A stretch of 64,000 bases of DNA, from NCBI GenBank assembly GCA_903910385.1, contig CAIVZM010000016.1:1-64000 (forward strand), given 5' to 3'. Positions 30,749-61,939 of the stretch are shown in pieces. The translations under genes were made by a program, and so were the position numbers. The first letter of the stretch is position 1; each line of letters starts with the position of its first letter. The notes below the pieces were generated by a model that was not told where the DNA came from, searched no databases, and worked only from the letters and a program-made list of their open reading frames with translations. Source of the DNA: an uncultured Armatimonadota bacterium (GTDB lineage Bacteria > Armatimonadota > Armatimonadia > Armatimonadales > Armatimonadaceae).

Positions 30749-32002
30749 CTAATCCTGTCGGCGGCGGATCAGTGCGATGGCGCCGGGGATCATGCCCAGA
30801 GCCATCAGACCCAGTGCGCCCGGTTCCGGGGCGGCGCTGGCGGCGAATACGAGAAATTGCGTATTCTGTGGAGCGCTTCCCGGTCCATTGATGGCGAGGC
30901 TGAAGTTATCATCGGCAACGAGAACCAGAGAGCGCCGTCCATCGGCAAGGGTTGGTCCAAACGTCATGCCTTCGACATTGTCCAACCGAATGCCCAGCGT
31001 TTTGAGATCGTATAGTAACGTTTTCTGCACCGGGACATAGCTGGCTCCTGCGAGGCTGGACAGACTGCTGACATCGGTGGCGCCATTCAGAGAGAACTGG
31101 TATAGCTTGATGTCGTACCCGGTTCCGGGTGCGCCGACGGTGTAGGAACGTTCCATCGCCAGATAGCTGTCCGGTCCCAACGTCAGCATTTCTACCAATC
31201 CGCCGACTGCGAAGTTGCCGCCCGTTGGGGGGACGACTACCGGGTCGACATTGTATACATATTGCGCTGCCGCCTGCCCGGTCGCCAGATCGAACATCAA
31301 TAGACGCGAGGGACTGAATGCGCCGCTGGCGGATGTCGGGCCATCCTGTTTCAGAGCGTTTTCCGTTCCGGTCAGCAAGCGACGGTTATCCGAAGTAAGG
31401 GTTGCGGATTCAAATGCCAGATTGTTACGAATACCCACGTTCAAGCCGCCGGGAAGGTTAGCAGTAAACTGAGAAGGCGCCAACATCTGACGGATTTGCT
31501 TGCCCGTCGTCAGGTCGAACTGGTACACGGACGGGCTGATCAGCGAGTGTCCCGACAGTCCGCCGGAATCTCCTTCACTGGAAATATAAACCGACTTGCC
31601 ATCCGGGGACAGCGCGACGCTTTCTAGGTCGGTAGCGAAGTTGGCGAACGGCGTCCCCGACCCGTCAAGCAGGGTAGTGGCGCTGTTGAAGGTGACATCA
31701 CTGTTGCTGAACGCGCCGCCGGTGATGTTCAGATTAAGCGAATAGAACCGTGGACGACTGCCTTCCGGGCTTTCATTCCCGCGATCATCGGAGTTGGCAA
31801 TATATCGATTGTTGGCGGCATCATATCGAATGCCGGAGAGCCCGCCTACGGTCTTTCCATCGACAGCGACACTACGCGCCGGGAAATTCGCCTGCCCCAG
31901 AAATTGCAAATCCTGAAGACGTTGCGCGTTCGCGACGCCACAGAGGGATGGGATCAGCGCCAGAATGCCGGTTACCGCACCGAGAGGATAATAGGAGCGC
32001 AT
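30749..32002 (-). CDS. Phytase-like secreted protein with PEP-CTERM anchor
   Basis: 417 residues of the esterase-like activity of phytase family, a beta-propeller-type domain. A signal peptide ends near VANAQ; internal landmarks are VGGLSGIRYDAANNRYIANS (DDRG follows), FATDLESVALSPDGKSVYIS, LESVAL-type acid residues, VEGMTFGPTLADGRRSLVLV and ADDNF. The C-terminus APEPGALGLMALGMIPGAIA followed by LIRRRQD is a PEP-CTERM sorting signal, so the protein should be processed by an exosortase (encoded elsewhere) and attached at or released from the surface. The promoter has a Pho-box-like pair of repeats, in keeping with phosphate release from organic esters. Confidence 0.85.
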   Translation of the reverse strand: MRSYYPLGAVTGILALIPSLCGVANAQRLQDLQFLGQANFPARSVAVDGKTVGGLSGIRYDAANNRYIANSDDRGNESPEGSRPRFYSLNLNITGGAFSNSDVTFNSATTLLDGSGTPFANFATDLESVALSPDGKSVYISSEGDSGGLSGHSLISPSVYQFDLTTGKQIRQMLAPSQFTANLPGGLNVGIRNNLAFESATLTSDNRRLLTGTENALKQDGPTSASGAFSPSRLLMFDLATGQAAAQYVYNVDPVVVPPTGGNFAVGGLVEMLTLGPDSYLAMERSYTVGAPGTGYDIKLYQFSLNGATDVSSLSSLAGASYVPVQKTLLYDLKTLGIRLDNVEGMTFGPTLADGRRSLVLVADDNFSLAINGPGSAPQNTQFLVFAASAAPEPGALGLMALGMIPGAIALIRRRQD

Positions 32003-32052: not shown

Positions 32053-32085
32053 ATGGTACCTATGCCATATTAAGCCTTCTTTAAG
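32053..32085 (-). promoter_or_regulatory. Pho-box-like promoter of the phytase-like gene
   Basis: On the minus strand: CTTAAAGA-AGG-CTTAATAT (11-bp period), then GGCATAGG (8 nt), then TACCAT as -10. The same architecture precedes the PEP-CTERM/phoD and pit genes in this window. There is no -35 hexamer, as expected for a PhoB-type activated promoter. Confidence 0.7.
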
Positions 32086-34925: not shown

Positions 34926-35774
34926 GTGATTCATCCCCCTTCGTTTATGTCTGAGGATGCGCCCTCGATTCAGGCGCTCCAGTCGCGTAAATGCGACGCT
35001 TTTACGCTGATCGAATTGCTCGTCGTTATCGCCATTATCGCCATTCTTGCCGCTATCCTTTTTCCCGTTTTCGCTCAGGCGCGGGAACGCGCTCGCGCGA
35101 TTTCCTGCCTCTCTAACATGAAGCAACTCGGACTTGGTCTGATGATGTACAGTCAGGACTTTGACGAAAGTTTCCCCCGATGTACGTTCTACGGTGGCGA
35201 TACCGCATTTGACCTGAACTGGCGCAATGTCATTTATCCGTATGTCAAGAGCGTCGATGTGTACGCCTGCCCTTCCAATCCGGCAGGACGACGGCGCGAT
35301 CAGGCAGGCGCGATCAATGGGCCTGGCGGCAAGATGGCAGGTGGATACGGCATGAACGCGATTGCGACCAGTTGGGTTCCCGCCGACTGGGGGTACGATG
35401 CCACCGTCCTCAGCAACGCTAATATCACAAGGCCATCCGACCTGATCATGATCGGCGAAGCGGTCGCCTTCGACCCGACGGTCGACATAGGCTACGGCAT
35501 TCTGGGAAGCTCCTGCGACCAGAAACGCGCTTATCAGCACTTCGGAAATGGTCAAAGCCCCAACTCCGGTACCCCCGTTAACTGGATTTTCGCGGACGGT
35601 CACGCCAAATCCCTGAAGTGGAAGCAGACTATCATTCCCCTCAACAAGAACGGGTGGGAACTCAACCCCAGCCAGGAACCGGGCAATATCAATATCCATG
35701 CGGATGATGGCGACTTCGATTACCCCAGCAAGAACACCACCGACGATTCTGGAATCTGTCCTCGTCTTCGGTAA
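34926..35774 (+). CDS. Pseudopilin, DUF1559-like (module 1)
   Basis: 282 residues with a type IV prepilin leader: a short basic region, then the cleavage/methylation motif [20 protein letters not shown] and [20 protein letters not shown]. The pilin body contains [14 protein letters not shown] and ends with a Phe-Ala-Asp-Gly-His signature ([14 protein letters not shown]) related to the H-X9-DG motif of DUF1559 proteins. Expected to be processed by prepilin peptidase and assembled or displayed in the envelope. Start is a GTG at 34926 or ATG at 34947. It begins the first pilin/CRTAC1 module. Confidence 0.88.
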
Positions 35775-40227: not shown

Positions 40228-40995
40228 ATGAAGCATCATTCGAAGAACGGTTCAACGTCAAACGCGGAAGGACGATTCTCGTCCTCGGCGTTTACGCTGA
40301 TTGAACTGCTCGTCGTCATCGCTATCATCGCCATTCTGGCGGCGATCCTTTTCCCGGTGTTCGGTCAGGCACGCGCCAAAGCGCGGCAGACTTCCTGTTT
40401 GAGCAACCTCAAGCAGATCGCGCTTGCCTTCAAGCAGTATCAGACCGACTATGATGACCGCGTTCCGCGCGGTTATGTCACCTTGCAGGGAGTTCCTGCG
40501 CCCAACTATGTCGGGTGGCATCAAATGATCTACGCCTACACAAAGAACAACGATATCCTGACCTGTCCGGACGACCTCGCTAAAACGGCAGCAGGTAACA
40601 TCTCGCCGAACCTGGCGCTACTTCCGGCAAGCTATCCCAAACCGGTGCATACCAGCTACCTGTACAACGCCTATCTGGGAGTGGGTAACGCCAAGTTCCC
40701 CGAACCTTCCAATACCTGCCTTCTGGCGGATGGCGGCGTACTGATGGCAGCCGCATTCCCGTTCACTGCGAACAATTCCTCCATCAAGCCCGGCGCGTTT
40801 CTGACGGGTTCCGATCGATGGAACGGTTTCTCTCAGTTACAGGATGACAAGAATCCCGATTGGGCGGCGGTCAATTCACGGCACAATGTGCAGACGAATA
40901 TGGCGTTCCTTGATGGTCATGCGAAATCGATCCCGAGGGACGGCGTCTATCCCGCCAGCGACCCCTCGAAGTACTTCCCGCAACCGTTCAAATAG
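40228..40995 (+). CDS. Pseudopilin with H-X9-DG motif (module 2, first copy)
   Basis: 255 residues from the ATG at 40228, which has AAGGAG 8-9 nt upstream. The basic leader [11 protein letters not shown] precedes [20 protein letters not shown] and [20 protein letters not shown]. The body shows [19 protein letters not shown] and a textbook H-X9-DG motif ([17 protein letters not shown]). A DUF1559-type pilin-like protein expected at the envelope after prepilin-peptidase cleavage. Followed after 152 nt by a second pseudopilin. Confidence 0.9.
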
Positions 40996-49781: not shown

Positions 49782-49814
49782 CTTAAACTTCTGTTAATAC
49801 AAGGTCGCTATCAT
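49782..49814 (+). promoter_or_regulatory. Pho-box-like promoter of the PEP-CTERM/phoD operon
   Basis: CTTAAACT-TCT-GTTAATAC (49782-49800, 11-bp period), then AAGGTCGC (8 nt), then TATCAT (49809-49814) as -10. The same arrangement is found before the phytase-like gene and pit. The rest of the 49511-49872 gap holds the nagB fragment and copy 2 of the repeat. Confidence 0.72.
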
Positions 49815-49872: not shown

Positions 49873-50454
49873 ATGCGCCTTAATTCCTTATTTACACGTT
49901 CGATGATGACGGCGTTGTTCACCGTAGCGGCGATGCAGACAGCGTATGCGGGCGACTTCACCTTTTCCGGTCTTTTTAAAAGTGACGATCAGGTGGCAAT
50001 CTACAAATTTAACGTGACGGACGCAGGGAATCCCGTCACGTTGACGACCACTTCGTTCGGAACTGGCGGATTCGACCCGATTCTGAGCCTGTTCCGTGAA
50101 GCTGATGGCGCGTTGATCACGGATAACGACGACATCTCTTTCCCTAATGATCGTGATTCACTGATTTCGCTGAACCTGAACCCCGGTTCCTATCTGGTCG
50201 CACTGACACAGAGCGATAATTTCGCTGTCGGCCCGAACATCATTGACGGATTTATCCGCCAGGGCGAAGGCAATTACACGGGCGGCCCCTTCCTTGACCC
50301 GACCGCGGGACAGCGAACCGGATCGTTTGGTATCGCTTTTCAGAATGTGTCTGCGGCGGTCGCTGCCCCGGAACCAGCGTCTGTTGCATTTGTCGCCCTC
50401 GGCGCTCTGGCTCTGGCGATGGGACGCGGGATTCGCCCCCGTTTCTCAAAATAG
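49873..50454 (+). CDS. PEP-CTERM protein, DVUA0089 family
   Basis: 193 residues from MRLNSLFTRS; AGGACACAGG precedes the ATG. Signal peptide to about AYAG, then a beta-sandwich pre-peptidase-like domain with DFTFSGLFKSDDQVAIYKFN, GGFDPILSLFREADGALITD and DRDSLISLNLNPGSYLVALT, as in the DVUA0089 family, and a C-terminal PEP-CTERM signal (APEPASVAFVALGALALAMG followed by RGIRPRFSK). Expected to be exported and processed by an exosortase. It is 48 nt upstream of phoD and shares its phosphate-type promoter. Confidence 0.85.
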   Translation: MRLNSLFTRSMMTALFTVAAMQTAYAGDFTFSGLFKSDDQVAIYKFNVTDAGNPVTLTTTSFGTGGFDPILSLFREADGALITDNDDISFPNDRDSLISLNLNPGSYLVALTQSDNFAVGPNIIDGFIRQGEGNYTGGPFLDPTAGQRTGSFGIAFQNVSAAVAAPEPASVAFVALGALALAMGRGIRPRFSK

Positions 50455-50502
50455 GGCGCATTTCAGATTGTCGATAGAGTTCGATTGAGAAAGAAGATAA
50501 AT

Positions 50503-52215
50503 ATGGAAAAGAAGACCGAACTGCAACGAATGCTGGCGCATCCTCTCAGCCGCCGACAAATCATTAACGGCGCGGGAGTTCTAGCAGGTCTCATGATCGC
50601 TCGGGAATTGCCCGTCTTCGCACAGGACAAGACCGGGTTGCCCGATTATCCCTTCACTCTCGGTGTCGCTTCCGGCGACCCCTCACCGGACGGCGTCGTT
50701 CTGTGGACGCGCCTCGCGCCCAATCCTGTCAGCCTTGACCCAAAGGTTCCCGGCGGTTTCAATTCTGACCGTAGCGTCGCCGTCGGTTGGGAAGTCGCTT
50801 CCGACCCCAACTTCAGAAACATCATCCAGAAAGGCAATGCTCTCGCGGCCCGCGCTTTCGCACACTCGATACATGTGGAACTGCGCGGTCTGAAACCGTC
50901 GACGTTCTACTGGTATCGCTTCAAGGCGGGACAGTGGATTTCTCCGGTCGGGCGCACGAAAACCGCTCCGGCTCAAGGAGCTAAGGTCAATCAATTCAAA
51001 TTTGCGTTTGTTTCGTGTGCCGATTACCAGAACGGTTACTTTACAGCGTACCGTGATATTGCGGCGCAAGACCTCGATCTGGTAGTGCATCTTGGGGACT
51101 ACATCTACGAGTATGGCCCCTCAGCGCCAACCTTCGATGCCAATCGCAAGCATAACCCATCTTTTGGCGGCCCCTCAGATATTGTCAATAACTCCCAGAT
51201 GACCTCCCTGGAAGACTACCGCAATCGGCACGCGCTTTATCGCACCGACTCCGATTTGCAGAAGGCGCACGCGGCGCATCCGTGGGTGGTAACCTTCGAT
51301 GACCATGAAGTGGAAAATAATTACGCGGACGACATCGATGAAATCGGCGACATTCGGGGCGGTTATGCCAGTTCTCCCGCCGACTTCCTGATTCAACGCG
51401 CCAATGCCTACCGGGCTTACTATGAGCATATGCCCATCCGGCAGAGTTCGATTCCAATTGGTCCGAATATGCAGATATATCGTCGATTATCGTTCGGTTC
51501 GCTAGCGACATTCCATGTTCTGGACACACGGCAGTACCGCACCGATCAACCATTAGGCACAGATGGCGGTCTTGGCTTTACCAACAATGACTTCTCAATC
51601 ACTGATTCCGAGGGAACCAACCCAACAGGGACTCTTCTGGGCGATACGCAGGAGCAATGGCTCACGACAGGGCTGGCGCAATCGCAGACCACCTGGAACA
51701 TCCTTGCCAATCAAGTGATGATGGCGCGGTTTAACTTCCTTCCAAAAGTCCTGAATCCCTCCCTCCCTAACCTGTTCAACTTCGATCAGTGGGACGGATA
51801 TGCGACGGCGCGACAGCGTCTTTTGGACGTTTTCGCAGCGAACATTAGCAAGAATGTTGTGGTGATCACGGGCGATATTCACTCCTCGTGGGTGCATGAC
51901 CTGAAGGCGTCATTCGCTAACCCCCGTTCCACGACTGTCGGAACCGAGTTGATCTGTACCTCCATCACGTCCTCTTTCCCGGCAGATCAAGTCAATATCA
52001 TCAGCGCGGCTGCATCTTTTACTTCTCCGTGGACAAAGTTCTTCGATGCGACCAAGGGATACACCCTCTGCACCCTGACCCCGAGCCAGTGGCGCGCCGA
52101 CTTCCGGGTTGTTCCTACCAACGCCGCCGGGCAGGTTCAGGAAATCAACGGCGTCGGTTCGACTCTAAAATCGTTCGTCATTCAGTCAGGAGTCCCCGGC
52201 GCAAAATCAGCGTAA
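50503..52215 (+). CDS. phoD: Alkaline phosphatase D (PhoD-like)
   Basis: Secreted calcium/iron-dependent phosphodiesterase/phosphomonoesterase that frees phosphate from organic esters. 570 residues from the ATG at 50503. A twin-arginine signal (SRRQIINGAGVLAGLMIA) directs folded export. Metal-site and family motifs: FTLGVASGDPSPDGVVLWTR, KFAFVSCADYQNGYFTAYRD, LDLVVHLGDYIYEYG, HPWVVTFDDHEVENNYADD, FHVLDTRQYRTDQ, NVVVITGDIHSSWVHDLK and TELICTSITSSF. Strong terminator follows. Co-transcription with a PEP-CTERM protein and the Pho-type promoter fit a role in phosphate scavenging. Confidence 0.95.
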   Translation: MEKKTELQRMLAHPLSRRQIINGAGVLAGLMIARELPVFAQDKTGLPDYPFTLGVASGDPSPDGVVLWTRLAPNPVSLDPKVPGGFNSDRSVAVGWEVASDPNFRNIIQKGNALAARAFAHSIHVELRGLKPSTFYWYRFKAGQWISPVGRTKTAPAQGAKVNQFKFAFVSCADYQNGYFTAYRDIAAQDLDLVVHLGDYIYEYGPSAPTFDANRKHNPSFGGPSDIVNNSQMTSLEDYRNRHALYRTDSDLQKAHAAHPWVVTFDDHEVENNYADDIDEIGDIRGGYASSPADFLIQRANAYRAYYEHMPIRQSSIPIGPNMQIYRRLSFGSLATFHVLDTRQYRTDQPLGTDGGLGFTNNDFSITDSEGTNPTGTLLGDTQEQWLTTGLAQSQTTWNILANQVMMARFNFLPKVLNPSLPNLFNFDQWDGYATARQRLLDVFAANISKNVVVITGDIHSSWVHDLKASFANPRSTTVGTELICTSITSSFPADQVNIISAAASFTSPWTKFFDATKGYTLCTLTPSQWRADFRVVPTNAAGQVQEINGVGSTLKSFVIQSGVPGAKSA

Positions 52216-52360: not shown

Positions 52361-54856
52361 TTAACCCGGAATCGGTACGGGAGTGGCTTCCCATATATGA
52401 TCGCAGTATTCGGAGATGGAACGGTCGGAGGAGAATTTGCCCATGCGCGAAACATTGAGAATTGTCTTCCGAGTCCATTCTTCCGAATCGAGATAGACGG
52501 CGCTGACCCGATCCTGACATGCCACATATGAGGTAAAATCCGCCAGCAACAGGTAATCGTCCCGATTCAAAAGGCTATCCGCCAATGAACGGAACAAGTT
52601 GACATCCCCACGCGAGAAACGGCCGGAGTAGAGACTATCGAACACTTCGCGTAGTATTGGGTCAGACTCATAGTAATCGCGGGGGCGATACCCACGCGCC
52701 TTTGTTTGATTTACTTCGTCCACGGTCTGACCAAACAGGAAGAAATTTTCCTCGCCGACTGCATCGCGGATCTCGATATTCGCTCCGTCCAGCGTCCCGA
52801 TGGTCAAGGCTCCGTTCAGGGCGAATTTCATGTTACCGGTGCCGGAGGCTTCCTTACCCGCAAGCGAGATTTGCTCGGAGAGGTCTGCGGCGGGATAAAC
52901 GCGTTGTCCAAAGGAGACATTATAGTCTGGCAGAAAAATTACTTTCAAACGTCCCGCGACATCGGGATCATGATTGATAACTTCGCCCACTGAGTGAATC
53001 AGCTTGATGATGAGCTTGGCAGTGTGATAACCCGGCGCGGCTTTTCCGCCGAAAATGACCGTGCGCGGGGTTACTGGAGCGGCGGGGTCGCGTAGAATCC
53101 GGTGATACAGGGCAATGACGAACAGAATGTTGAGATGCTGACGTTTGTACTCATGAATTCGCTTGACCTGAACGTCAAAGAGAGATTCAGGGGAGACGGT
53201 TTCCCCTACCCGAGACTCAATATACGTAGCGAGATCACGCTTCATGGCAAGTTGAATGGATCGCCACTCTGCGCGGAAATTGGCGTCATCCGCAAGCGGT
53301 TCCAGTTGCTGTAAATGCTTCAGATCTTTGAGCCATGTCCCACCAATATGAGTGGTTATCAAGGCGGCAAGCCGTGGATTGCTGAGGGCGATCCATCTTC
53401 GGGGGGTCACCCCATTGGTCACATTGACGAACTTCTCCGGCATCATTTCGTAGAAGTCGCGCAGGACATCGCTCTTCAGGAGTTCCGTATGTAATGCTGC
53501 CACACCATTGATTTTCCGTGCACCAATCGCCGCCAGATTCGCCATTCTGACAAAGCGCTCCCCACTTTCATCAATGATGGAAAGGCGAGAAAGTTTACCA
53601 TTATCGCCGGGGTATTTCGCTCGGACAGTGTCCAGAAACCGTCGGTTGATCTCGTGTATGATCTCCATAAGTCGGGGCAGTTGCGAGGCGAACAGGGGAC
53701 GCGACCAACGTTCGAGCGCCTCTGGCAACAGGGTATGGTTCGTGTAGGCGATGGCGTGTGATGTGACTTCCCAGGCGGCTTCCCAGTCCATGGCGTGTTC
53801 GTCCATCAGAAGCCGCATCAGTTCCGGGACCGCTACCGACGGGTGCGTGTCATTCAGTTGAATCGCGACAAACTCATGCAAGCGCTCCAGAGGACGCCCA
53901 CTCTTGAGGTGTTTGCGGATAAGGTCTTGCAGGGCGCAGGAGGTGAAGAAATACTGCTGGCGCAGGCGCAGTTGCTTGCCCTGAATCTCTTCATCGTTGG
54001 GATACAGCACTTTGGTGATGTTTTCCGTGATGACCTTTTCCGCAACGGCGCCAAAATAATCGCCGACATTGAAAGCGGCAAAGTCGAAAGAGTCCGGGGC
54101 GGATGCGCTCCACAAGCGCAACGTGCTACAGGTCAGTGTCTGGTATCCGGGGACGGGCGTATCGTAGGGAATACCCTTGACCACCAGATCCGGCGTCCAT
54201 TCGACTTTGAATTTCCCATCCCCGTCCGTGTAAGAATGCGTCCCTCCGCCGAACTTGACCAGGCAGGCTTCTTCCGGTCGGGCAGTTTCCCAGGGGTTAC
54301 CCCACTGTAGCCACTTGTCGGTGATTTCCACCTGCCAACCATCATGGATCTCCTGATCGAAGATGCCGAACTCGTAGCGAATGCCGCAACCGACCGCCGG
54401 AATATCGAGGGTCGCCAGTGAATCCAGATAGCAGGCCGCCAAACGACCGAGGCCGCCGTTACCAAGACCCGGCTCTTCTTCCTGATTCAAAACCTCGTTG
54501 AGGTCTATACCCAGTTCCGAAAGGGCGACCCGCACGGATTCGACCGCGTTCAGATTCAGCAGAGCATTCCCAAGGTGCGGCCCCATCAGAAATTCAGCGG
54601 AAAGGTAGTAGACCGTCTTCCCCCCGGTTTTGGCATAAATCTGCTCCGTGCTGACCCATCGTTCCATGAGTAACTGATGCGCTGTCTGCGCCATCGCCCG
54701 GTAGCGGTCGTTAGCAGTCGCGGTTTCAAGAGTCCGCCCCTGTCGCCGTAACAGGTTGTCCAAAAACGATTGTTTCAGTTCTTCGACGTTGTACTTACCG
54801 GTGATATCAGGATTGTCCCCGACCGCTTCGGTTGATTTTTGTGTCGCTTTTGCCAT
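52361..54856 (-). CDS. glgP: Glycogen/starch phosphorylase
   Basis: Releases glucose 1-phosphate from alpha-1,4-glucan ends using phosphate. 831 residues, normal length for the family. Motifs: TVYYLSAEFLMGPHLGNALL, EEPGLGNGGLGRLAACYLDS, YEFGIFDQEIHDGWQVEITD, the NDTHPSVAVPELMRLLMD region, and the pyridoxal-phosphate site EASGTGNMKFALNGALTIGT with its Lys. It starts 18 nt after pit ends on the same strand, so a shared transcript is possible; phosphate import upstream of a phosphate-consuming enzyme is a sensible pairing. Confidence 0.96.
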   Translation of the reverse strand: MAKATQKSTEAVGDNPDITGKYNVEELKQSFLDNLLRRQGRTLETATANDRYRAMAQTAHQLLMERWVSTEQIYAKTGGKTVYYLSAEFLMGPHLGNALLNLNAVESVRVALSELGIDLNEVLNQEEEPGLGNGGLGRLAACYLDSLATLDIPAVGCGIRYEFGIFDQEIHDGWQVEITDKWLQWGNPWETARPEEACLVKFGGGTHSYTDGDGKFKVEWTPDLVVKGIPYDTPVPGYQTLTCSTLRLWSASAPDSFDFAAFNVGDYFGAVAEKVITENITKVLYPNDEEIQGKQLRLRQQYFFTSCALQDLIRKHLKSGRPLERLHEFVAIQLNDTHPSVAVPELMRLLMDEHAMDWEAAWEVTSHAIAYTNHTLLPEALERWSRPLFASQLPRLMEIIHEINRRFLDTVRAKYPGDNGKLSRLSIIDESGERFVRMANLAAIGARKINGVAALHTELLKSDVLRDFYEMMPEKFVNVTNGVTPRRWIALSNPRLAALITTHIGGTWLKDLKHLQQLEPLADDANFRAEWRSIQLAMKRDLATYIESRVGETVSPESLFDVQVKRIHEYKRQHLNILFVIALYHRILRDPAAPVTPRTVIFGGKAAPGYHTAKLIIKLIHSVGEVINHDPDVAGRLKVIFLPDYNVSFGQRVYPAADLSEQISLAGKEASGTGNMKFALNGALTIGTLDGANIEIRDAVGEENFFLFGQTVDEVNQTKARGYRPRDYYESDPILREVFDSLYSGRFSRGDVNLFRSLADSLLNRDDYLLLADFTSYVACQDRVSAVYLDSEEWTRKTILNVSRMGKFSSDRSISEYCDHIWEATPVPIPG

Positions 54857-54873
54857 GATAATTGCTTACTCTT

Positions 54874-56388
54874 TCATGATGGACGTCGCACTACCACCAG
54901 CGCACCCTTATTACCTATGGGCGCAGATATATAACCCTGTAACGGCGTCTGGTTGTATTCATCATCCGGGGCGATCACAGGCGGCGGCGTCTTCTGTAGA
55001 ATAGCGCCCGCACTCACGGCGAAGAGCGTTCCTGCCAGGAGAATGGTGACAGGCAACGTCAGTACCCAGGCAAGCGCAATATTACGGATAGTATCTCCCT
55101 GTAGCCCGGAACGGTTTGCCGCCATCGTGCCGGCGATCCCCGACGATAGAACGTGCGTCGTACTGACTGGAAGTCCGAGATGGTCGGCAGCGAAAATCGT
55201 ACACATGGCGACAAGTTCCGCCGCCGCGCCTTGCGCATAGGTAAGGTGGGTCTTGCCAATTTTCTCGCCGACGGTGACAACGATTCGCTTCCAGCCGATG
55301 GTCGTTCCCAGACCGAGAGCGATAGCGACCGCCAGTGGCACCCATCCGAGAATAAAGTCGGTGATATTGGCAGTCAGAGCCTTCTTGGATGTCTTGAGTG
55401 CGCTGATATTTTCTGGGGTCAATCCGGGCGTTTTGGCGAATTTGCCCAGAGCGTCGTCAGCGCGCAGGATTGCGGCGCGCAACTCTTTCTTTTCGGTGTT
55501 GGGCATCGTCGCGATATCGGTCATCTTTTCCAACCGCGTCTGAACAGCATCCAGCGCGGTATTGACCTTGGCAGAGTCTGCGACATCTTTTGCGCTGACG
55601 ATACCTTTGGCGGTCTTGATCTGAGCGATCGTGTTGTTGCGTTGTTCGTTCGTCAATGCCGGGTTCAGGGAGAACTGCATGGGTAACAGACCGATAATGA
55701 TGAGCATGATTAGCCCAATGCCTTTTTGGCCGTCATTGGAGCCATGAGCGAAACTGACGCCGGTACAGGTCAGGCAGAGAACCGCGCGAATCCAGAACGG
55801 TGGCGGGGCGTCTTTGGCAGGTTCTTTGTACAGATCAGGGTTTTTGACCAGAGCTTTAGAAAGTAACAGCAAGATTGCAGCGCAACCGAAGCCAATAACC
55901 GGTGAAAGAAGCAATGCCATGCCCGTTTCCTGCGCTTTGCCCCAGTTAACGCCCGAGCCGAAGCCCTTACCGCTAAAGTATGAACTGGCAAGTCCAACCC
56001 CGATGATCGAGCCAATGAGCGCGTGGGAACTGGACGACGGCAACCCGAAGTACCAGGTGCCGACATTCCAGATAATTGCTGCAAGCAGTAGCGATAGCAC
56101 CATCAACAATCCGGCGGCGCCATCTATATTTATAAGGAGATCGACGGGCAACAGATGAACGATCCCGAAAGCGACCGCGCCGGAACTGGTAATGACACCT
56201 AGAAAGTTCATCAGTCCCGACCAGATAACAGCCGTGTTGGGCTTGAGGGAATTGGTATAAATTACCGTCGCTACCGCGTTCGCCGTATCGTGGAATCCGT
56301 TGACAAACTCAAACCCGAGTGCAATAAATAGACAGATGCCCAGTAAAAGCAAAGTGCCCCAGCCAACTGAGCCATCGAATATATTCAT
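54874..56388 (-). CDS. pit: Low-affinity inorganic phosphate transporter (PiT family)
   Basis: Inner-membrane phosphate symporter, 504 residues. The PiT signatures are present twice, as expected: GFEFVNGFHDTANAVATVIY near the N-terminus and ELVAMCTIFAADHLGLPVST followed by THVLSSGIAGTM near the C-terminus; also SSSSHALIGSIIGVGLASSY and FAHGSNDGQKGIGLIMLI. Between the two halves lies a hydrophilic insert of about 110 residues (from NEQRNNTIAQIKTA to EALKTSKKAL-like), probably a helical cytoplasmic domain. AGAGGAGGATATT precedes the ATG. The promoter carries Pho-type repeats, notable for a transporter often regarded as constitutive. Confidence 0.95.
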   Translation of the reverse strand: MNIFDGSVGWGTLLLLGICLFIALGFEFVNGFHDTANAVATVIYTNSLKPNTAVIWSGLMNFLGVITSSGAVAFGIVHLLPVDLLINIDGAAGLLMVLSLLLAAIIWNVGTWYFGLPSSSSHALIGSIIGVGLASSYFSGKGFGSGVNWGKAQETGMALLLSPVIGFGCAAILLLLSKALVKNPDLYKEPAKDAPPPFWIRAVLCLTCTGVSFAHGSNDGQKGIGLIMLIIIGLLPMQFSLNPALTNEQRNNTIAQIKTAKGIVSAKDVADSAKVNTALDAVQTRLEKMTDIATMPNTEKKELRAAILRADDALGKFAKTPGLTPENISALKTSKKALTANITDFILGWVPLAVAIALGLGTTIGWKRIVVTVGEKIGKTHLTYAQGAAAELVAMCTIFAADHLGLPVSTTHVLSSGIAGTMAANRSGLQGDTIRNIALAWVLTLPVTILLAGTLFAVSAGAILQKTPPPVIAPDDEYNQTPLQGYISAPIGNKGALVVVRRPS

Positions 56389-56432: not shown

Positions 56433-56478
56433 ATTATGCCAAACTTTCATTAAGATAATGTTAAGAATGCCTTTTAAG
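56433..56478 (-). promoter_or_regulatory. Pho-box-like promoter of pit
   Basis: On the minus strand CTTAACAT-TAT-CTTAATGA (11-bp period) is followed by AAGTTTGG (8 nt) and CATAAT (56433-56438) as -10. A further CTTAA element lies 13 bp upstream (56474-56478). A second 11-bp-spaced pair (TTAAG at 56540, TTAAA at 56551) is found upstream, possibly another site. Confidence 0.75.
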
Positions 56479-56582
56479 AATGCGTTATTATAACTTGTTA
56501 CATACTGAGGAAAATAAAATCAATAGCTCGATACTGTTGTTAAGAACGGATTAAAAATAGACAAGATTTTGCGAATTCTTTT

Positions 56583-60121: not shown

Positions 60122-61939
60122 GTGCTTACGTTGCGATTGCTGGGAGGATTTGAAGCGCTGGTGGACGGAGTAACGGCTAAAGTCGCCCCTGCTCCTGCAC
60201 GTCTTTTATGTCGTTTAGCGACAGATGCCAACCGCACTATCCCCCGAAGCCGAATCTGGCAAGACCTCTGGCCCGATAGCGATGCCTCTGATGTCGTCAA
60301 TGTCAATCTGCGCCGCCTTCGGCATGACTTATTGCGCACGGAAGGAGACCGCTTAAAGGTGGATAATATCAGTGTCAGGCTTGACCTTACCGACGCCGAT
60401 GTGGACTTCCTGCGCTTTCAACGACTGGTTAGCTCAGGTTCCATCCCGGAGCTTGAAGAAGCGGTTCGGTTGTATCGCGGCGATTTCCTCCTTCGTTTTT
60501 GCGAGGAAGGCTGGCTGCTAGACCTGCGTGACGAACTGAAGACAGATTTCGAGGACGCGCTCAAGACACTTTCGGAAAACGCCCTTCGGAACGATGACTT
60601 TCTGGTAGCTGCGCGACACCTGCGCCGCTTCGTCGCAAGTAATCCCGATTATGAGTGGGGCTGGTTTTCGCTTATTGAGACATACTCCCAAAGGGGCAAC
60701 GCTCAGGATGCGCTGACAACCTATGCCACATATGTTGAGCATAGCCGTGCATGTAGGCTTCCGAAATCCGCGCGTATTGAGATGGTCATCGCTCCTTTTC
60801 TAGAAGCGCACGAAAGGCAATCCTCTTCCTCTCCGACGAAGACATCCGCACATAATCTTCAGGAATCTAATCGCCCCCGCCAGACTGAGCCAGAAGTGAT
60901 TCAAACGCATGCTGTACTGGATGAGAGGCTGGTTATCGGAGGAGCATTACCACCTGACTCGCCATTCTATATAGCTCGTGCAGAGGACGCCGAGACGTTT
61001 GGCGCTCTTGCGGTTGCTGGCACCACCATCCGTATCAAAGGACCTCGGCAAGTTGGCAAATCTTCGTTGCTAGCCCGCGCCTTGCGCCGTTGCCGTGAGT
61101 CTGGAATGCTTGTTCTGTTGACAGACTGGCAGAATCTACCGATTTCCGCTCTCGAATCAGCGGAAGCGTTTTATACCAATCTTGCCTACCGGATGGCGGA
61201 CAAGGCGGAACTGGAAGTTGATCCCGTCTCAGTCTTCCGTCCACACCTTGCGCCCGGTGATAACTTCGACCGATTTATCATGCGCCTGCTCGTACCGAAG
61301 GTGGGACGACCGATTGTCTGGGCTATTGATGAGGCAGACCGTATATTTTCCTGTGATTTCTATGGAGAAGTCTTCGCTAAGCTCCGGGCATGGCACAACG
61401 AACGCGCTCTCGATGCTCAGGGACCATTGGCGCAGTTTTCCCTGGCGCTGTCTTACTCAACAGAGGCGAGGCTTTTCATTTCCAACCTAAACCAGAGCCC
61501 TTTCAATGTAGGGGTCGAAATGGAGTTACACGATTTCACCCCCGAGCAGACATCCGCCTTACACGACTCCTATGGTCGACCGCTGGGCGGTGATGCTGCC
61601 CTGCAGCGTCTGCACCGCCTTCTCTCGGGACACCCATATCTAACTTCTCGGGCTTTCTATGAAGCCCGTATGCATGACCAGAGCATTGAGCGCATGGAAG
61701 ACGAGGCGCAAATAGGAATTGGCGCATTCGCCGACCATCTAGAGCGATTGCGCTTCGCTCTCGGTCTGAATCCGGAACTCTCTGATGCGGTGCGCTTATT
61801 TCTACAAGAGGAGATAGCTCCGACAAAAGACCAGTTCGTTCGCCTGAACGCAGCAGGCATCCTGATGACTGGCGGTTCATCAGGAATCCAGATGAGGTGC
61901 TTACTCTATGAACGGTACTTACGTCAGATGCTATTTTGA
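60122..61939 (+). CDS. SARP-like regulator fused to a STAND/AAA-type ATPase
   Basis: 605 residues in three parts. An OmpR/PhoB-type winged helix (1-90: LRLLGGFEALVDGVTAKVAP, RSRIWQDLWPDSDASDVVNV followed by NLRRLRHDLL), a bacterial transcriptional activation domain (BTAD, about 95-240: DVDFLRFQRLVSSGSIPELE, FAVAARHLRRFVASNPDYEW-like helices with TPR-type repeats), and an AAA-like NTPase (about 280-605) with Walker A IKGPRQVGKSSLLARAL and Walker B IVWAIDEADRIF. Starts with GTG after GGGAGGG. The NTPase is related to the N-terminal part of the next gene. Likely a signal-dependent transcription activator, possibly self-regulated. Confidence 0.88.
   Translation: MLTLRLLGGFEALVDGVTAKVAPAPARLLCRLATDANRTIPRSRIWQDLWPDSDASDVVNVNLRRLRHDLLRTEGDRLKVDNISVRLDLTDADVDFLRFQRLVSSGSIPELEEAVRLYRGDFLLRFCEEGWLLDLRDELKTDFEDALKTLSENALRNDDFLVAARHLRRFVASNPDYEWGWFSLIETYSQRGNAQDALTTYATYVEHSRACRLPKSARIEMVIAPFLEAHERQSSSSPTKTSAHNLQESNRPRQTEPEVIQTHAVLDERLVIGGALPPDSPFYIARAEDAETFGALAVAGTTIRIKGPRQVGKSSLLARALRRCRESGMLVLLTDWQNLPISALESAEAFYTNLAYRMADKAELEVDPVSVFRPHLAPGDNFDRFIMRLLVPKVGRPIVWAIDEADRIFSCDFYGEVFAKLRAWHNERALDAQGPLAQFSLALSYSTEARLFISNLNQSPFNVGVEMELHDFTPEQTSALHDSYGRPLGGDAALQRLHRLLSGHPYLTSRAFYEARMHDQSIERMEDEAQIGIGAFADHLERLRFALGLNPELSDAVRLFLQEEIAPTKDQFVRLNAAGILMTGGSSGIQMRCLLYERYLRQMLF

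Follow-up and report, generated by a model that had tools for sequence, protein, structure and literature searches.

A candidate PhoB-type regulon in an Armatimonadota genome, with tandem 11-bp promoter boxes before phosphate genes and a large subset of DUF1559 genes

Three promoters in a 64-kb stretch of DNA from an uncultured Armatimonadota bacterium (the window) share an element that we read, with a probability of about 0.88, as Pho boxes of a genome-wide PhoB-type regulon, which would include phosphate genes together with a large subset of the prepilin-like DUF1559 family.

Results

Shared layout of three promoters in the window

Direct reading of the letters bore out the proposal of the initial annotation that the promoters of the PEP-CTERM/phoD operon, the phytase-like gene and pit are built alike, as CTTAANNN-3-(C/G)TTAANNN-8-(-10), that is, two octamers 3 nt apart and a -10 element 8 nt further on. 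The phoD operon promoter reads CTTAAACT tct GTTAATAC aaggtcgc TATCAT on the plus strand, while those of the phytase-like gene and of pit read CTTAAAGA agg CTTAATAT ggcatagg TACCAT and CTTAACAT tat CTTAATGA aagtttgg CATAAT, respectively, on the minus strand. The coordinates first given for the phoD and phytase-like elements stood, whereas those given for pit (56433-56454) omitted the first octamer and had to be extended to 56465 (Table 1). Among the 73 TTAA tetramers of the window, exactly four pairs are spaced 11 bp apart, whereas the other distances between 4 and 39 together account for six pairs. Because these four are the only 11-bp pairs and all precede the genes named (pit twice), the shared layout is not a product of chance.

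Genes resembling those behind the window promoters were also found with boxes elsewhere: PEP-CTERM-like genes in two related genomes (G007, L230; G001, L265), and a phytase-like gene in the latter (L270). Judging by its spacing from pit, the glycogen/carbohydrate phosphorylase gene possibly shares the pit transcript. Two DUF1559 genes inside the window carry no box. The window also encodes a SARP/AfsR-like protein in which BTAD and AAA_35 domains were recognised, together with a weakly scoring Trans_reg_C match.

Table 1 Features of the window and boxed genes elsewhere in the same genome (contigs C11 to C78; L, locus)
Feature	Location	Strand	Details
Pho-type promoter (putative), PEP-CTERM/phoD operon	49782..49814	+	octamers 49782-49789, 49793-49800; -10 TATCAT 49809-49814
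PEP-CTERM-type secreted protein with PPC domain	49873..50454	+	first gene of operon; PF04151, 3.5e-6
PhoD-type alkaline phosphatase	50485..52215	+	PF09423, 5e-108
Pho-type promoter (putative), phytase-like gene	32053..32085	-	octamers 32085-32078, 32074-32067; -10 TACCAT 32058-32053
Esterase/phytase-like secreted protein	30749..32002	-	PF13449, 6.6e-76
Pho-type promoter (putative), pit	56433..56465	-	octamers 56465-56458, 56454-56447; -10 CATAAT 56438-56433
Second 11-bp TTAA pair upstream of pit	56539..56555	-	TTTAATCCGTTCTTAAC
Pit-type inorganic phosphate transporter	54874..56388	-	PF01384, 1.6e-88
Glycogen/carbohydrate phosphorylase	52361..54856	-	PF00343; 17 bp downstream of pit
DUF1559 gene	35076-35246	+
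DUF1559 gene	40366-40536	+
SARP/AfsR-like protein	60122-61939	+
porin-pstS-pstC-pstA-pstB operon	C18		YTTAA box upstream
phoU	C77		YTTAA box upstream
phnG (C-P lyase)	C78		YTTAA box upstream
Two YncE-phosphoesterases, N-terminal part propeller-type	C11, C67		YTTAA box upstream
Metallophosphoesterase	C15		YTTAA box upstream
Tyrosine-phosphatase-like gene	C16:106719		G-variant box, as at the phoD operon
Prepilin-type gene without PF07596 match	C38:56018		one box cluster upstream
ANTAR-domain response regulator	G000:C52, near 15.0-15.6 kb (L068)		boxed
Exported protein of ~200 aa	L020:835-1494	-	boxed; no Pfam match
Phosphoketolase	L025:8538-10958	+	box-like repeat at G000:C33:68474

Boxes across the genome

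The genome to which the window belongs was covered by pattern scans and by the stretches around their matches. The pattern CTTAAN6CTTAAN11YAYMAT matched 20 sites when as many as 2 mismatches were allowed, and YTTAAN6YTTAAY, which leaves the -10 element out, gave 44 sites in 36 clusters. The elements had been taken to define a local phosphate regulon; the scan that the initial annotation had proposed as a check did return boxes before the pst operon, phoU, C-P lyase, phosphoesterases and other phosphatases, and the 36 clusters are spread genome-wide, so that "local" no longer applies. Phosphate genes follow eight of the clusters (pit, the phytase-like gene, the porin-pst operon, phoU, phnG, the two phosphoesterases and the metallophosphoesterase), PF07596 genes follow 16, a prepilin-type gene one and other genes 11. 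An equal frequency of boxes before unrelated genes, named at the outset as evidence against the idea, was thus found for one family, DUF1559, and not for genes at random. The raw count is in itself weak evidence in this genome, since a backwards-read control pattern gave 24 matches compared with 44, and part of the 11 remaining clusters may be due to chance.

An ATPase reading frame upstream of phoU was considered as PstB and rejected, its best model being a heme/iron-type ABC ATPase. Among the 11 other clusters, one lies before an ANTAR-domain response regulator that has a box in three genomes, each from a different genus (also L221 and L245); as ANTAR proteins are antiterminator-type regulators, it may form a second layer of the regulon. 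Another precedes an exported protein of ~200 aa, boxed in three genomes of two genera (also L260 and L254) and, in the genome studied here, sharing its contig with the phn genes. A box-like repeat, TTTAACTTTTTCTTAAA, lies 63 bp before the longest reading frame of a phosphoketolase gene.

Conservation in related genomes

In many related genomes the box clearly outnumbered its backwards-read control (34:2 in G001, 28:4 in G002, 19:0 in G003, 43:6 in G007 and 47:7 in G013). The boxes were conserved before orthologous genes: pit has one in G005, G009, G012 and G015, which represent three genera, and pstS has one in G001, G002, G005, G012, G015 and G017, six genomes that each belong to a different genus. 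Boxes were also seen before genes for PhoU-, porin-, Pit-, PhoB-, PhoX-, acid-phosphatase- and Na/Pi-cotransporter-like proteins. When boxes were collected blind to the genes behind them, prepilin-type DUF1559-like genes followed in 5 of 16 groups in G001, 4 of 10 in G003 and 16 of 32 in G007, with the genes labelled by reading their sequences rather than by a family scan; the groups outside this class often belonged to phosphate genes. The link between box and DUF1559 therefore recurs in three related genomes from two other genera, and it weakens at the order and phylum level: 11-bp pairs upstream of DUF1559 genes numbered 7 versus 0.27 in G013 (3 of 32 genes boxed) and 2 versus 0.02 in the distant G019 (2 of 14). 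It is absent in a genus poor in boxes, g5, where the 12 DUF1559 genes checked in G004 showed no 11-bp peak and no box.

Could an 11-bp TTAA repeat simply be common to promoters in AT-rich intergenic DNA, akin to an UP element and served by no dedicated regulator? The sizeable control count in the window's own genome points that way, but the low controls in G003, G001 and G007, the strong bias of clusters towards particular gene classes, the prominence of period 11 over adjacent spacings and the near absence of boxes from g5, despite 36 DUF1559 genes in G004, make this highly improbable.

Spacing to the -10 element

In relatives, stretches were fetched by the box alone or by nearby pit/pst genes, so the -10 element was not selected for. 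Of 87 boxes that were the last in their array, 27 had a good -10 starting at gap 8 and 26 had one at gap 19, compared with about 2 at other offsets. The 44 box-only sites of the window's own genome gave 10 at gap 8, 12 at gap 19 and 8 at gap 20. The fixed 8-nt gap first noted at the three promoters hence recurs in boxes chosen without regard to the -10 element, accompanied by a second register that differs from it by 11 bp, exactly one repeat. The repeat thus sits in place of a -35 element at a fixed distance of 8, or 19, from the -10.

Boxed DUF1559 genes

About a quarter of the 67 DUF1559 (PF07596) copies in the genome are boxed, and the boxed members exceed the PF07596 cut-off and carry an N-terminal methylation motif. 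The 16 of 36 clusters that precede such genes compare with 0.16 expected (p about 2e-28). In 300-bp regions upstream of 65 DUF1559 genes, TTAA-TTAA spacing of 11 occurred 21 times, whereas dinucleotide shuffles gave 0.74; minor peaks stood at 22, 32 and 33, and other spacings were rare. A structure model of one boxed protein (mean pLDDT 72) displayed a long pilin-type helix; comparison with solved folds returned no significant match, and the model consequently gave no function.

In the DUF1559 tree the boxed members are moderately clustered (10 label changes versus 15 in shuffles), with one supported group of five boxed members. This is what would be expected if the boxes were functionless leftovers of recent duplication from one boxed ancestor, an explanation that we nevertheless regard as very unlikely: the tree calls for several gains or losses of the box, at least three of them even when only strongly supported branches are counted, the core and the -10 spacing are kept while the flanks have diverged, and the association with DUF1559 recurs in other genera.

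A PhoB-PhoR pair as the candidate regulator

The genome encodes only three clear OmpR-type response regulators. One of them, on contig C55, is encoded beside a PhoR-type kinase, and of the NCBIfam models PhoB fits it best (243 of 296 bits, under the equivalog cut-off); the kinase scores 244 of 334 bits against the PhoR model, likewise under the equivalog cut-off. The best PDB match of the regulator is mycobacterial RegX3. PhoB-like orthologs are present in each of 21 genomes. The stretch RTVDVH(I/V)RW(I/L)R is common to nearly all the orthologs that were compared; that of G020 differs.

A box had also been expected before phoBR. None was found upstream of phoB in the window's own genome, whereas phoB is boxed in two other genera: in each of four g5 genomes (G004, G008, G010 and G011) the single GTTAAN6GTTAAY sits in the phoB promoter, and a YTTAA box precedes phoB in G005 and G009 of genus g6. 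These boxes before phoB tie the element to PhoB. The g5 genomes have almost no boxes besides the phoB one, as though their regulon had become smaller or its box had decayed; an altered PhoB helix was rejected as the cause, given that the g5 recognition-helix stretch is unchanged.

OmpR-family regulators commonly recognise tandem repeats, the genome holds two further members, and no role in phosphate metabolism is known for DUF1559. A different OmpR-family regulator with a preference for the same 11-bp TTAA repeats might bind the DUF1559 boxes, leaving only the phosphate-gene boxes to PhoB and the DUF1559 family outside the phosphate response. We consider this unlikely: the core, the period and the -10 registers are identical in the two classes, the two remaining regulators best fit heavy-metal CopR/CusR-type models, g5 has kept its phoB box while none of its 12 checked DUF1559 genes is boxed and hardly any boxes occur elsewhere, and both boxed DUF1559 genes of G019 lie beside phoB-phoR.

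Discussion

The reading of the three window promoters as Pho boxes gains support from the genome scan, from the pit and pstS boxes of relatives and from an E. coli-like geometry. At least two direct repeats of 11-bp period were found, and boxed phosphate-acquisition genes across the genome include pstSCAB, phoU, pit, phn and phosphatases.

As in E. coli PhoB boxes, 11-bp direct repeats replace the -35 element, with a gap of 8 in both phoA (TGTCATAA-agt-TGTCACGG-8-TATAGT) and pstS (TGTCATAA-aac-TGTCATAT-8-TATAAC). If TGTCAT is aligned with CTTAAC, an alignment that we infer, the geometry would equal that of these two promoters, while the half-site sequence differs. The recognition-helix stretch is RTVDVHIRW(I/L)R here and RTVDVHIRRLR in E. 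coli PhoB. The cyanobacterial PhoB counterpart SphR recognises tandem repeats of CTTAACCT with 3-bp linkers (PMC1906773). Those boxes have almost the same half-site, CTTAA(C/T), and the same 8 + 3 bp repeat, and they too lie before pst and phosphatase genes; however, SphR is reported to bind at least three repeats (PMC1906773), whereas two often suffice here, and many targets here are DUF1559 genes. The operator is ordinary, and the novelty is the target set.

In the mechanism that we propose, two head-to-tail 11-bp half-sites of CTTAA(C/T) type would substitute for the -35 element, and the phosphorylated C55 regulator would bind them and recruit RNA polymerase when phosphate is scarce. Promoters would come in two geometries, with 8 or 19 nt separating the last clear half-site from the -10. 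Predicted targets serve phosphate uptake (porin-pstSCAB, pit and phoU) and the degradation of phosphonates (phn); they further include several phosphatases that are secreted and a sizeable share of the exported, prepilin-like DUF1559 family. The boxes, their geometry, the gene identities and the conservation are seen in the sequences themselves, and PhoB as the binder, phosphate as the signal and induction of DUF1559 genes are deduced. We favour a putative PhoB-type regulon of the ordinary kind whose targets include an unusual class, exported proteins that resemble pilins.

In Planctomycetes, too, DUF1559 is a large family with a prepilin-type N-terminus. No paralogue group of Planctopirus limnophila is larger, with 68 copies of unknown function (PMC10632474), and Rhodopirellula baltica has 74 copies, nine of which were induced by cold or salt shock (PMC2754498); our literature search on the family found no link to phosphate. 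We see about an even chance that a PhoB regulon has captured much of the family, such that phosphate starvation induces dozens of exported pilin-like proteins, perhaps for phosphorus scavenging by secretion or display; that these proteins act in secretion or in scavenging at the surface when phosphate is limiting is speculative.

The boxes would define a Pho regulon with two promoter spacings, and a literature search found none described for this bacterial group. A putative phosphate-starvation switch at a quarter of the DUF1559 members, recurring in related genera, gives an unexplained family a testable condition. If true, it would open a first way into the regulation of a family whose unexplained copies number roughly 30 to 90 in a genome, and offer an initial clue to the conditions under which its members are used.
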